Shown: positions 43,184 through 58,575 of the stretch, in pieces
How positions within the stretch are numbered: the stretch's first letter is position 1
Layout: every line of letters starts with the position of its first letter
Source of the DNA: Mycolicibacterium nivoides
GTDB lineage: Bacteria > Actinomycetota > Actinomycetes > Mycobacteriales > Mycobacteriaceae
Length of the DNA: 64,000 nucleotides
Direction of reading: 5' to 3'
NCBI RefSeq assembly: GCF_003855255.1
Contig: NZ_CP034072.1
Location: 2,284,330-2,348,329, forward strand
Notes under the pieces: generated by a model
Seen by the model: only the letters and a program-made list of their open reading frames with translations
What the model was told of the DNA's origin: nothing
The model's database searches: none
Position numbers and translations under genes: made by a program

Positions 43184-43215
43184 CGTTGGTCGCGGATGCG
43201 GGCGCCGAAGTTCCC
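43184..43215 (-). promoter_or_regulatory. SigC-like promoter of the DUF5134-type gene
   Basis: Minus strand: GGGAACT (43215-43209), 16 nt, CGACCAACG (43192-43184). One of six elements in the copper island with the same two boxes and exactly the same spacing. Transcription should start near 43177, about 40 nt before ATG 43138. Confidence 0.7.
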
Positions 43216-43228
43216 GCACCCGTCAGCA

Positions 43229-43247
43229 CTACGACGCATTGTCGTAG
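43229..43247. promoter_or_regulatory. Palindrome CTACGAC-N5-GTCGTAG before ctaG copy 2
   Basis: Perfect 7-bp arms with a 5-bp spacer, ending 6 nt before the ATG of the CtaG/CopD gene. The form recalls BlaI/CopY-type operators (CTAC...GTAG ends), but this is not proven. It overlaps the place where the ribosome or RNA polymerase would sit, so a repressor site is likely. No second copy was seen in the window. Confidence 0.5.
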
Positions 43248-43253
43248 AATCGC

Positions 43254-45257
43254 ATGGCCGCGACGTTTTGTTCGTTTCCGCGGCGGAAGGCCGGTTCGAC
43301 TATGGCGCGTGTGCGCATGTCCACTGCGGCCGGGGTGTGGCGGGGACGCCTGGCACTGCTCGGCATCGCCGCAGGTTGCACTGTGGTGCTGTTCATGAGC
43401 GCCGTGCAACTGGGCCCGCAACGGCTGGCCGCGGCGGGGATCGCCGACCCGGGAACGGCCACCAGCGCAGCTCGGTTGCTCGGACACTGGGCAGGGACCT
43501 TGGCGGGTGCGCTCTGCGTCGGAGCGCTCATCTGGATTGTGACGACCGCGACACCTCGCGACGACGGGCGAATCGACGCGGCATCCTTCTCGGCGCACCT
43601 GCTCGTCGAACGCATCGCCATCGTCTGGGCCTGCTGCGCCACCGCGATGGTGGTGGTCTCGGCGTCCGCCGACGCGGGAATTCCCATCGGCCGGCTTGTC
43701 GCCGGTCCCGGCCTCGGCAGCACCATCGCGGCGTCAGAGGTCGCACGCGGCTGGTGCGTGACAGCGATGTGCGCGCTGGTGTTGGCCGTCGGCGTGCGTT
43801 TCACTCTCCGCTGGATGGGTCATTGTGTGGCACTGCTGCCGGCGTTGATCGGAGTGGTCGCAGTACCGGTGACCGGCAATGCCGGGCAGGGCCCGGACCA
43901 TGACATCGCCACCAGCGCCGTGATCGTCTTCGCAGTGGCGGTCGCGGCTCTGGCCGGAACGAAAATCGCTTCAACCGGACAGCGAGACGTCGTGTTCCGA
44001 CGCCGGGTGCAGGTGGTGCAGCTGACGTGCGGGGCGGTCGCCATCGTCTACGGCGCCGTCCTGGCCACGCTGATGTTGCGCGGATTGCCGATCCTGGGGT
44101 CCGCCTACGGGCGGGCCGTGGTGGTCGCCGGGGTGCTGCTGGTACTGGTGTGGATCGGCGACGGGATGCTACTTCTGACGCGCCGTGCCCCGTCACGGTT
44201 GGTCGACACCGTATCTGCGGGCGCGATGGTCATCGTCACCGCCGCGTTGGCGCTCGCCGCGAACAGCGTTCCGCCCCGGTTCACCGTTCACGAGTTCTCC
44301 ACGTGGGACATCTTTTTGGGCTATCAGCTCGATACACCCCCGAGCCCGGTCACCCTGATCACCGAGTGGCGGTTCGATCCGCTGATCGGAACGGCAGCCA
44401 TCGTGCTCGGGCTGGGCTATCTCGTCGCGGTGGCGCAGCTGCGGCGACGCGGTGACAAGTGGCCGGTCGGACGCACGATCGCCTGGTCCCTGGGTTGCGC
44501 GGCCTTGCTGATCACCACGAGTTCCGGAGTGCGTGCCTACGGATCGGCGATGTTCAGCGTGCACATGGGTGAGCACATGGCACTGAACATGTTCGTCCCC
44601 GTGCTGCTGGTGCTCGGCGCACCCGTCACCCTCGCGCTACGGGTTCTGCCCGCCGCGCCGAAAGGTGAGGCACCGGGGCCTCGCGAATGGTTGGTGTGGT
44701 TCGTACATGCGCCCGTGACCCGGTTCCTGTCGCACCCCGTGACGGCCTTCCTCTTGTTTGTCGGCTCGCTGTACCTCGTCTACTTCACGCCCCTGTTCGA
44801 CACCTTGATCCGGTATCACTGGGGCCACGAGTTCATGAGCGTGCACTTCCTGCTCACCGGCTACCTGTATTACTGGGGCATCATCGGCATCGACCCCGGA
44901 CCGCGGCGACTCCCCTTCCTGGGGCGGCTCGGGCTCCTGTTCGCCGTGATGCCCTTCCACGCCTTCTTCGGTATCGCCACCATGACGATGACGTCATCGC
45001 TGGGTGAGAGCTTCTACCGGTCTGTCAATCTGCCTTGGTTGCAGAGCATTTCGGATGACCAACACCTCGGTGGCGCCATCGCGTGGGGTTCCAGCGAGCT
45101 GCCGGTTGTCATCGTGGTGATCGCGCTGGTGGCCCAGTGGGCACGCCAGGATCGCCGGGCGGGAGCGCGTGAGGACCGCCACAGCGACCGCGGGTACGAC
45201 GACGAACTCGATGCCTACAACGCGATGCTGCACGAACTGTCCCGCACCCGGCGCTGA
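43254..45257 (+). CDS. Cytochrome c oxidase assembly factor CtaG / CopD-domain membrane protein (copy 2, Rv0102-like)
   Basis: A 667-residue polytopic membrane protein, close in length to Rv0102 (661 aa), the gene after nrp in M. tuberculosis. N-terminal half: CopD-like helices; C-terminal half: CtaG domain with FSVHMGEHMALNMFVPVLL, VHFLLTGYLYYWGIIGIDPG and MPFHAFFGIATMTM, whose His and Met residues are candidate copper ligands. It probably passes copper to the aa3 oxidase or across the membrane. It belongs with the chalkophore genes by synteny although it is divergent from the DUF5134-type gene. No SigC-like promoter was found in front; instead a perfect palindrome ends 6 nt before ATG 43254. 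A later start (ATG 43302) is possible. Confidence 0.88.
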   Translation: MAATFCSFPRRKAGSTMARVRMSTAAGVWRGRLALLGIAAGCTVVLFMSAVQLGPQRLAAAGIADPGTATSAARLLGHWAGTLAGALCVGALIWIVTTATPRDDGRIDAASFSAHLLVERIAIVWACCATAMVVVSASADAGIPIGRLVAGPGLGSTIAASEVARGWCVTAMCALVLAVGVRFTLRWMGHCVALLPALIGVVAVPVTGNAGQGPDHDIATSAVIVFAVAVAALAGTKIASTGQRDVVFRRRVQVVQLTCGAVAIVYGAVLATLMLRGLPILGSAYGRAVVVAGVLLVLVWIGDGMLLLTRRAPSRLVDTVSAGAMVIVTAALALAANSVPPRFTVHEFSTWDIFLGYQLDTPPSPVTLITEWRFDPLIGTAAIVLGLGYLVAVAQLRRRGDKWPVGRTIAWSLGCAALLITTSSGVRAYGSAMFSVHMGEHMALNMFVPVLLVLGAPVTLALRVLPAAPKGEAPGPREWLVWFVHAPVTRFLSHPVTAFLLFVGSLYLVYFTPLFDTLIRYHWGHEFMSVHFLLTGYLYYWGIIGIDPGPRRLPFLGRLGLLFAVMPFHAFFGIATMTMTSSLGESFYRSVNLPWLQSISDDQHLGGAIAWGSSELPVVIVVIALVAQWARQDRRAGAREDRHSDRGYDDELDAYNAMLHELSRTRR

Positions 45258-57006: not shown

Positions 57007-57007
57007 G

Positions 57008-58477
57008 CTATTCGCGTCGCCCATCTAAATCGCCCAACCAGGTGCCAGGGAGCATCGGGACGGATTCCCCGGCGGGCGCATGCCGCACCATCCCTGAGGC
57101 AGTTGCGCTCGAGGCGACCGGTACGGCCCCGGAGAAGCCGAGGGTGGTCGCCCCTTTGTCGCTGGATGACGGCGACATGGGTCGGCTCAGGTCCTGGCCG
57201 TCGACGGTGGCGCCCACGGTTTCGGTGGGGGCCAGAAACTCGTACCGGTAGCTTCGGGCCCGGTCTCGTTTCCGGCCGGTCTGCCGTCGACGGCTGCGAG
57301 CGGCAGCAGCCGCCCTTGCCGCGGCAACGGTGGCGAGGATATCTGCCATGCCATCAGTGGATTTCGCACCGGACTTGGGCCCCGATGCCACTCCCGGCGG
57401 ATCGAGACCGGGGACGACGTAGCCGGCGAAGGGTACGGGTGCCGAGCTCGGTGGACTGCTACCGGCAGGCGCACCAGAGCCGGATCCGCCGGTCTGCGGA
57501 ACTGCGCTGGATACCCCGGCGGGGCCCAATGCCGCACCGACGCCGACGGTCGGGGCGACGCGGTGGCCGGTGCTGACCTCGACGGGAGCAGGTGACACGC
57601 CGGGCGGCGGCATCCTGCCCTGCAGGAGCGCCAGCGCGCTCAACGCGCTGAGAGCACTGAGAGCGGGCGCGAGGAACGGCAGTAGCAGTAGCGAATACGA
57701 GGCGTAGTACGGATACCAGAGCATGTCGTACAGCACCAGCGCGATGATCGCGAGTATGGCGGCCTCGGCCGGGTTGAATCCCAGCTGCTCGAAGAGCTGT
57801 TGAAACGTCTGCAGGAGCTGTTCGGGATTGCCCGCACCGGAGATCAGGTCGGAGATCAGCCTCCAGATATCGCTCAGCGGCTGGTTGTCCGAGGTTGAGC
57901 CCGACCCATTCTGCTGTTGGCTTTGCGCTTCGCCTCCGGGCACGAGGATCGACGGGGCCGGCTGGGGTGACGGGACCGCCGCCGACGCGTTCGTCGCAAT
58001 TACCTGGTAGGTCGTCATCACTTCGGCAGCCTGCAGCCACATCCGCACGTAATCGGCTTCATTGAGGGCAATCGGTATGGTGTTGAGGCCGAAGAAGTTG
58101 GTGGCCAGGAGCACCCCGTGGGTGACGTGGTTGGCTGCGAGCTCGGCCAGCGTAGGCATGGTGGCCAGTGCGCTGCTGTAGGCGGCTGCGACCGTTCCGT
58201 GCTGTGCGGCGGTCACGGCACTGTCGGCTGACGCCTGCTCCAGCCACGCGAGGTAGGGGCCATGGGCAGCCACGTACTGCGCCGCGCTGGGCCCTTCCCA
58301 GCTACTGCCTTGCACCTCCGCCAGGATCTGTGTGAGTTCCGCTGCCGCCGCGCTGTATTGAACGCTCAGCGCCTCCCACTGAGTCGCTGCGGCAAGAAGG
58401 GATCCGGGACCCGGGCCCGTGCTCAGCTGGGCAGAATGCACCTCCGGGGGCACCGCCAGCCAGTACGGCGCAGTCAC
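57008..58477 (-). CDS. PPE-family protein (PPE1-like) of the chalkophore cluster
   Basis: A 489-residue PPE protein: MTAPYWLAVPPEVHSAQL at the start (PPE at residues 10-12), SSWEGPSAAQYVAAH with the WxG turn, and a conserved helical domain to about residue 170 (FFGLNTIPIALNEADYVRMW). The middle is hydrophobic (ILAIIALVLYDMLWYPYYAS), then a Pro/Gly/Ala-rich part and a basic segment (RSRRRQTGRKRDRARSYRYE). PPE proteins are exported by type VII systems, usually with a PE partner; none is encoded here. PPE1 (Rv0096) opens the nrp cluster of M. tuberculosis and has been linked to chalkophore function. GTG start behind a strong AGGAGGTG site; SigC-like promoter at 58545-58575. Confidence 0.92.
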   Translation of the reverse strand: MTAPYWLAVPPEVHSAQLSTGPGPGSLLAAATQWEALSVQYSAAAAELTQILAEVQGSSWEGPSAAQYVAAHGPYLAWLEQASADSAVTAAQHGTVAAAYSSALATMPTLAELAANHVTHGVLLATNFFGLNTIPIALNEADYVRMWLQAAEVMTTYQVIATNASAAVPSPQPAPSILVPGGEAQSQQQNGSGSTSDNQPLSDIWRLISDLISGAGNPEQLLQTFQQLFEQLGFNPAEAAILAIIALVLYDMLWYPYYASYSLLLLPFLAPALSALSALSALALLQGRMPPPGVSPAPVEVSTGHRVAPTVGVGAALGPAGVSSAVPQTGGSGSGAPAGSSPPSSAPVPFAGYVVPGLDPPGVASGPKSGAKSTDGMADILATVAAARAAAAARSRRRQTGRKRDRARSYRYEFLAPTETVGATVDGQDLSRPMSPSSSDKGATTLGFSGAVPVASSATASGMVRHAPAGESVPMLPGTWLGDLDGRRE

Positions 58478-58544
58478 GTCATCACCTCCTCACACGAGCG
58501 TCGACCGGCACCGCAGGGACCGGCACGCATTGCCTTGTCTTTGA

Positions 58545-58575
58545 GCTAGTCGGTCACGGCGGACAGAAAGTTCCC
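58545..58575 (-). promoter_or_regulatory. SigC-like promoter of the PPE gene
   Basis: Minus strand: GGGAACT (58575-58569), 16 nt, CGACTAGC (58552-58545). Start expected near 58538, about 60 nt before GTG 58477. Confidence 0.75.

Follow-up and report, generated by a model that had tools for sequence, protein, structure and literature searches.

A 64,000-nt stretch of the Mycolicibacterium nivoides chromosome (contig NZ_CP034072.1; hereafter the window) carries an island of copper-related genes around sigC, which encodes an extracytoplasmic function (ECF) sigma factor, and six copies of the motif RGGAACT-N16-CGAC in this island most probably are -35/-10 promoters read by SigC-carrying RNA polymerase and switching on copper acquisition, a reading to which we assign a probability of about 93%. 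Within this genome of the M. fortuitum group, no exact match resembling a promoter lies outside the island that holds sigC. Promoters read by SigC ahead of ctpB and ppe1 have been published, as has a part for SigC in copper acquisition; to these the analysis adds further targets, a consensus from many genomes and a strongly supported candidate partner of SigC, a zinc-finger membrane protein of the RscA type.

Six promoter-like sites cluster in one copper island

The six sites (Table 1) lie at the coordinates and on the strands given in the original prediction, and 16 nt separate GGAACT from CGAC in each of them, as had been claimed; relatives also use a spacing of 15 (7 of 58 PPE promoters). 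Six exact matches compare with 0.13 expected in the window, none of 100 shuffles reached six, and all six fall inside 15.4 kb. That the other GGAACT words of the window lack CGAC at this distance was likewise borne out: only six of the 41 words (19 on the plus strand, 22 on the minus strand) qualify, and allowing any spacing from 10 to 22 added only one word at 12 and, once more, the 49507 word at 13.

The placement of the sites relative to genes had been put at 20-80 nt before a start codon, which holds for five of them (30-70 nt to the called start) and fails for the sixth, which lies 88 nt from a supposed leader open reading frame (ORF) and about 150 nt from gene 45638. A leader peptide behind the sixth site was rejected, since the short ORF (45576-45641) overlaps the start of gene 45638 and resembles, by eye, a remnant of what we take to be a WhiB-type gene, whose end occupies that place in three relatives (L075, L077, L113). 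The -35 box of the ctpB promoter is about 16-22 nt from the start of sigC, and the HMA-gene site sits within the final 55 nt of the frame of the nonribosomal peptide synthetase (NRPS).

A scan of the whole genome (6,905,961 bases), proposed with the original prediction as a check, upheld the local cluster and gave no raised total: 18 exact matches were found vs 16 for the reversed pattern, six of them in the 15.4-kb island and 12 in the remaining 6.9 Mb; uniform placement of the 18 would put 0.04 in the island (P = 5.6e-12). The pattern GGGAACT-N15-17-CGAC gave 32 matches vs 21 for its reversed form. Across the genome, the pattern by itself thus lacks specificity, and the case for SigC is made by contrasts among classes of genomes and by placement. 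Every one of the 12 matches beyond the island lies at least partly within a reading frame of 100 or more codons, and all were treated as chance hits; one of the off-island matches (5758862) has look-alikes in three genomes (G020, G231, G281) and overlaps the end of a frame that by eye is methyltransferase-like, with no clear gene downstream.

The sites are conserved before orthologous genes

For conservation, a sample of 297 genomes of the genus was used: in all 63 besides this one that carry FcoT, the sequence surrounding it was taken, and each gene was searched from 260 nt upstream to 30 nt inside it for GGAACT-N16-CGAC. The pattern preceded PPE in 50 of 58 usable genomes (with N15 in 7 of 58 more), TauD in 27/63, HMA in 20/43, CtpB in 16/26 and DUF5134 in 8/21, and it stood before the orthologue of gene 45638 in 5 of 10 relatives, only one of these five having A or G ahead of GGAACT. 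No such site was found before FcoT, FadD10 or NRPS (0/63 each), CtaG (0/25) or the zinc-finger gene (0/24). TauD had its own site in all eight stretches in which no PPE was found just upstream (L104-L108, L129, L134, L135). A relaxed form (GGAAC in place of GGAACT) gave nine DUF5134 matches, one of which (L099) arose because the stretch was clipped and is absent from the GGAACT-N16 count.

When a profile was built from 66 de-duplicated promoters of other genomes, with the window and one locus (L074) excluded, the six sites ranked first to sixth in the window, scoring 15.7 to 35.5 against 8.2 for the next best. The consensus is roughly CGGGAACTtt, with a gap of 16 nt, or of 15 nt in some relatives, between GGAACT and CGAC, and then T/C and A.

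Motif number and placement follow SigC

Genomes of the genus were classified by their best SigC match as positive (E <1e-55, N = 192) or negative (E >1e-17, N = 105), incomplete genomes being kept. GGGAACT-N16-CGACYW averaged 0.61 copies per genome in the 105 SigC-negative genomes, 1.80 in 128 SigC-positive genomes without FcoT and 3.72 in 64 with FcoT, and its reversed control 1.62, 1.80 and 1.73 in the same classes; as the reversed pattern has a different base level, the comparison was made between classes. FcoT, a marker of the chalkophore operon, was found only alongside SigC (64/64). Placement, judged with a simple gene caller on the first 20 listed SigC-negative sites and on 43 of the first 45 listed from SigC-positive, FcoT-negative genomes, was promoter-like for 29/43 sites in the latter vs 2/20 in the former. 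By our own reading, only part of which was run through Pfam, the genes after these 29 sites comprise eight PPE, two PE, five CtpB, six DUF5134 and four PepSY genes, one YcnI (DUF1775) gene and one BlaI-type repressor, the two remaining sites possibly being due to chance.

The pattern extends to 141 genomes from other genera of the family, where 35 carried a SigC-like protein (E <1e-40) and 106 did not. The motif averaged 2.0 in the former (reversed control 1.09) vs 0.87 in the latter, and among 33 sites in the 30 loci returned, placement was promoter-like for 15/18 in SigC-like-positive and 1/15 in negative genomes, that single site coming from a genome only 66% complete. Pfam named nine of the 16 proteins downstream (CopC three times, CopC-CopD, UbiA, HMA ATPase, PepSY_TM twice and zf-HC2), and the other seven resemble these nine at their sequence starts. 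Five genera contain both states, and the motif mean was higher with SigC in four of them.

Some SigC-type sites are observations apart. Related genomes have in common a strong site, GGGAACT...CGACTACTGA (L160:5201, plus strand; L162:1856, minus strand), with no frame of at least 70 codons starting within 260 nt, which possibly serves a small RNA or a short gene. Two further sites (L166:7104 and L167:4965, both plus strand) lie ahead of PPE genes that by eye appear decayed.

SigC as the probable reader of the sites

The ECF factor that the original prediction had placed amid the set is SigC by the NCBIfam model NF007231 (267.2 bits; cut-off 219). Its best matches in the Protein Data Bank (PDB) are 2o7g and 2o8x, chains named sigma-C factor that we take to be those of M. 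tuberculosis, and it has 186 residues, ending shortly after region 4. Ahead of both ctpB and ppe1, earlier work in M. bovis BCG described binding of SigC and -35/-10 elements that are nearly the same, in vitro transcription of ctpB by SigC has been reported, and induction of SigC raised ctpB and ppe1-nrp, with a sigC mutant lagging in copper-poor medium (PMC7924339). A role for ctpB in copper-limited growth (PMC9147137), chalkophores as the products of nrp with a need for PPE1 in low copper (PMC9600254), and a response of the sigma-C of C. glutamicum to copper deprivation (PMC7337898) are also on record. The assignment of the boxes to SigC, originally offered as an interpretation, is thus supported by the identity of the island's ECF gene, by the way in which the motif tracks the presence of SigC and by the SigC binding and near-identical elements published for ctpB and ppe1 in BCG. 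Since the island encodes chalkophore synthesis (TauD-FcoT-FadD10-ACP-NRPS), PPE, CtpB, HMA, DUF5134 and CtaG proteins, SigC, if it reads all six sites in M. nivoides, would, when copper is short, turn on genes for copper acquisition and for the assembly of copper enzymes. Before sigC itself, the motif was found in the sense direction at 0/19 loci, so that by this test the gene is not autoregulated; the same has been suggested in M. tuberculosis (PMC7924339), and sigC transcription is reported to be SigK-dependent (PMC4821874).

Several results weigh against this reading. Over the whole genome the exact pattern is no commoner than its reversed form (18 vs 16), and the two means coincide (1.80) where SigC is present and FcoT absent; the genomes are related, so p-values overstate their independence. 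The first-to-sixth ranking came from a 66-site profile into which only sites with both boxes were admitted and to which close relatives of the window contributed, and a profile from PPE promoters only ranks the six sites 1, 2, 4, 5, 7 and 14, the last being the sixth site. CtpB-type matches lack the motif at 9/26 loci, where some may be paralogues; TauD is without even the relaxed form in 35/63; and the 20/43 for HMA includes at least three sites shared with CtpB matches (L094, L115, L124). The relaxed form also occurs before FcoT (7/63) and the zinc-finger gene (1/25), CGAC is also seen at spacing 13 (PPE 4, TauD 3, HMA 6, CtpB 2), and in genus g30 the motif counts do not follow SigC (1.33 vs 1.5).

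Could another factor read the same sites, SigC being a mere neighbour? GGAAC is common to many ECF promoters, which counts for an ECF factor of SigM, SigE or SigH type with a GGAAC -35 box, whereas the -10 box CGAC(T/C)A is unlike the boxes of those three and counts against it. Overexpression of sigM did raise rv0098-rv0100 (PMC7924339), yet both the number of motifs and their promoter-like placement depend on the presence of SigC and the reported binding and transcription at ctpB involve SigC itself, so that we consider such a substitute improbable. Even less weight, close to none, goes to the idea that a repressor or activator responding to copper binds the repeated words as its operator, with no sigma promoter there at all: the island does hold at least one other regulatory-looking repeat (CTACGAC-N5-GTCGTAG, 43231-43249), but the motif consists of two non-palindromic boxes at near-fixed spacing and in a single orientation, the relaxed form being present on the opposite strand only once before PPE (1/58) and once before DUF5134 (1/22), and never before TauD, HMA or CtpB.

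A zinc-finger membrane protein as candidate partner of SigC

With the SigC reading of the six promoters as the starting point, we propose, from sequence, that the zinc-finger membrane protein of the island is a copper-sensing anti-SigC factor, which would hold SigC until the copper level drops. It is a zf-HC2 protein that we take to be of Rv0093c type; the protein has been named putative rscA (PMC6917791). An RscA-type protein was found in 191/192 SigC-positive vs 3/105 SigC-negative genomes of the genus and, with an RscA profile at E 1e-6, in 34/35 SigC-like-positive vs 6/106 other genomes outside it. At 10/14 loci (L137-L150, mostly picked for a motif near sigC) the RscA-type gene and sigC share one open frame, a fusion earlier reported for the M. 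avium complex (PMC7563442), and among the 120 matches listed, out of 437 proteins matching such a fusion, 120/120 carry sigma domains and 119/120 zf-HC2. In the window the two genes are about 6 kb apart in the same island; outside the genus 14/34 genomes have them divergent and no more than 400 nt apart, and eight more have them 2 to 9 kb apart. Six genomes of other genera (G297, G316, G326, G341, G357, G394) have a SigC motif immediately ahead of the zinc-finger gene, and in L243, L244 and L246 the called start of that gene follows CGAC by 10 nt, as might be expected of a leaderless transcript.

The alternative for this part does without an anti-sigma factor: an inactive conformation would keep SigC in check, and the zinc-finger protein would serve another sigma factor. 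SigC (ECF36) has indeed been listed as proposed conformation-regulated (PMC8999054), and several of our results are compatible with that proposal: in 20 of the 34 genomes outside the genus with both genes the two are not adjacent, six pairs in genus g3 lying 0.4 to 1.8 Mb apart on the same contig and five pairs on different contigs; the RscA matches in ten genus-g3 genomes are weak (1e-13 to 1e-24), lie at a distance from sigC and may represent different anti-sigma factors with a zinc finger; and the predicted fold of the natural fusion, made from 42 sequences, is uninformative (mean pLDDT 43.9, pTM 0.24). Against it stand the near-complete co-occurrence within and outside the genus, the fusion in a group of mycobacteria, the divergent neighbours in other genera and the motif directly ahead of the zinc-finger gene in six genomes, and on this evidence we regard control by conformation as unlikely.

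More tentatively, at somewhat less than even odds, RscA may be the copper sensor family-wide, its membrane part binding copper through conserved histidines and freeing SigC upon copper loss. The zinc-finger residues C3, H29, C33 and C36 are kept in 29/29 sequences of the genus and in 8/8 from several genera, and in the membrane part H123 (28/29), E127 (29/29) and H184 (27/29) are kept in both sets, with an H115-H116 pair present in 8/8 of the multi-genus set and below 90% in the 29 genus sequences. Candidate copper ligands would be a loop rich in His, predicted to join membrane helices 1 and 2, and a later His. A search of solved-structure sequences with RscA returned only glutaredoxin matches (E 0.19 or worse). 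If the proposal is true, the fusion in a group of mycobacteria would make sensor and sigma factor one polypeptide, and the SigC-driven PPE proteins of genomes without chalkophore genes would be general copper-uptake proteins.

As a separate observation, three genomes of one genus (G335, G397, G431) are without SigC and have interrupted RscA-type matches, as if the two had been lost together; stops inside the RscA match also occur in three genomes with SigC-like proteins (G298, G375, G388).

Relation to known copper-linked sigma factors

The finding is mainly a well-stocked instance of a known regulon, the case for RscA as regulator being the more novel part. The SigC regulon of M. tuberculosis and M. 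bovis BCG (ctpB, ppe1-nrp; PMC7924339, PMC9147137) has the same sigma factor, core targets and role in copper limitation, and its boxes ahead of ctpB and ppe1 are described as nearly identical. In M. smegmatis, no sigC orthologue is reported to have been found (PMC7563442). In contrast to M. tuberculosis and M. bovis BCG, sigC of the window lies inside the island beside ctpB, the TauD operon and the HMA, DUF5134 and 45638 genes have sites of their own, and the consensus is drawn from many genomes. In the surveyed part of the open-licence literature, HMA, DUF5134, PepSY or further PPE genes were not found named as SigC targets. The sigma-C regulon of C. glutamicum (PMC7337898) is likewise under a SigC-type ECF factor and activated under copper deprivation, and the motif described here precedes CopC, UbiA-type and PepSY genes in other genera; that regulon differs in including cydABDC, and the available part of the paper names neither PPE nor chalkophore genes. 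RscA/Rv0093c is published as a putative anti-SigC factor with an anti-sigma signature that forms a fusion with SigC in the M. avium complex and, in the M. mucogenicum clade, is encoded close to sigC (PMC6917791, PMC7563442), to which the present analysis adds co-occurrence, the SigC motif before its gene in other genera and the conserved histidines. CorE of Myxococcus is, like SigC, an ECF factor tied to copper, but Cu2+ activates it by way of a C-terminal extension rich in Cys (PMC8999054), whereas SigC serves copper shortage and, at 186 residues, stops shortly past region 4.

How copper shortage is sensed in M. tuberculosis has been named an open question (PMC7924339), and the tight pairing of SigC with the zinc-finger membrane protein offers a concrete candidate for the sensor. 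A reliable promoter signature makes the regulon readable from sequence in SigC-bearing genomes and makes it likely that PPE, PepSY, DUF5134, HMA and YcnI genes take part in copper acquisition.

Features of the island

Start positions of CtpB (48399), TauD (56928) and CtaG (43302) were adopted in place of the program-listed ORF starts, which were judged too early.

Table 1 Promoter sites and genes of the copper island (positions in the window)
Feature	Position	Strand	Basis
SigC-type promoter of PPE gene, GGGAACT-N16-CGACTA	58549..58575	-	pattern scan, promoter profiles
SigC-type promoter of TauD (Rv0097-like) operon	56980..57006	-	pattern scan, profile
SigC-type promoter of HMA gene, within 3' end of NRPS frame	49482..49508	-	pattern scan, profile, conservation
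SigC-type promoter of ctpB, divergent from sigC	48442..48468	-	pattern scan, profile, conservation
SigC-type promoter of DUF5134 gene	43189..43215	-	pattern scan, profile, conservation
SigC-type promoter (AGGAACT) toward gene 45638, weakest of six	45461..45487	+	pattern scan, profile ranks 6 and 14
sigC, ECF sigma factor (start 48484 also possible)	48490..49050	+	NF007231; PDB matches
zf-HC2 membrane protein, Rv0093c/RscA type, proposed anti-SigC factor	41794..42501	+	PF13490; co-occurrence with SigC; conserved Cys/His
PPE protein (PPE1-like)	57008..58477	-	PF00823, PF18878
TauD-family oxygenase (Rv0097-like)	56059..56928	-	PF02668
FcoT thioesterase (Rv0098-like)	55502..56056	-	PF10862
FadD10-like adenylating enzyme	53902..55473	-	PF00501
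Acyl carrier protein (ACP; Rv0100-like)	53664..53909	-	PF00550
NRPS (nrp-like)	49454..53677	-	PF00501, PF07993
Stand-alone HMA metal-binding protein	49088..49450	-	PF00403
CtpB-like copper P-type ATPase	46087..48399	-	PF00122, PF00403
DUF5134 membrane protein	42506..43138	-	PF17197
CtaG-type cytochrome oxidase assembly protein; no SigC motif in own direction	43302..45257	+	PF09678
MymT-like cysteine-rich metallothionein ORF, divergent from sixth site	45308..45418	-	sequence; named by likeness
Small membrane protein, weak Rv2732c-family match (26 bits, cut-off 60)	45638..46123	+	NCBIfam

The MymT-like ORF, of 36 residues and lying between ctaG and the sixth site, would bring copper detoxification and copper uptake genes together in one island. 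The inverted repeat at 43231-43249, a perfect one, lies between the divergent DUF5134 and CtaG genes and is perhaps an operator of BlaI/CopY type; a BlaI-type gene (PF03965) with a SigC motif was seen at another locus (L157). Among the 18 loci found, the closest named relatives of FcoT are those of M. septicum (99%) and of other species of that group.

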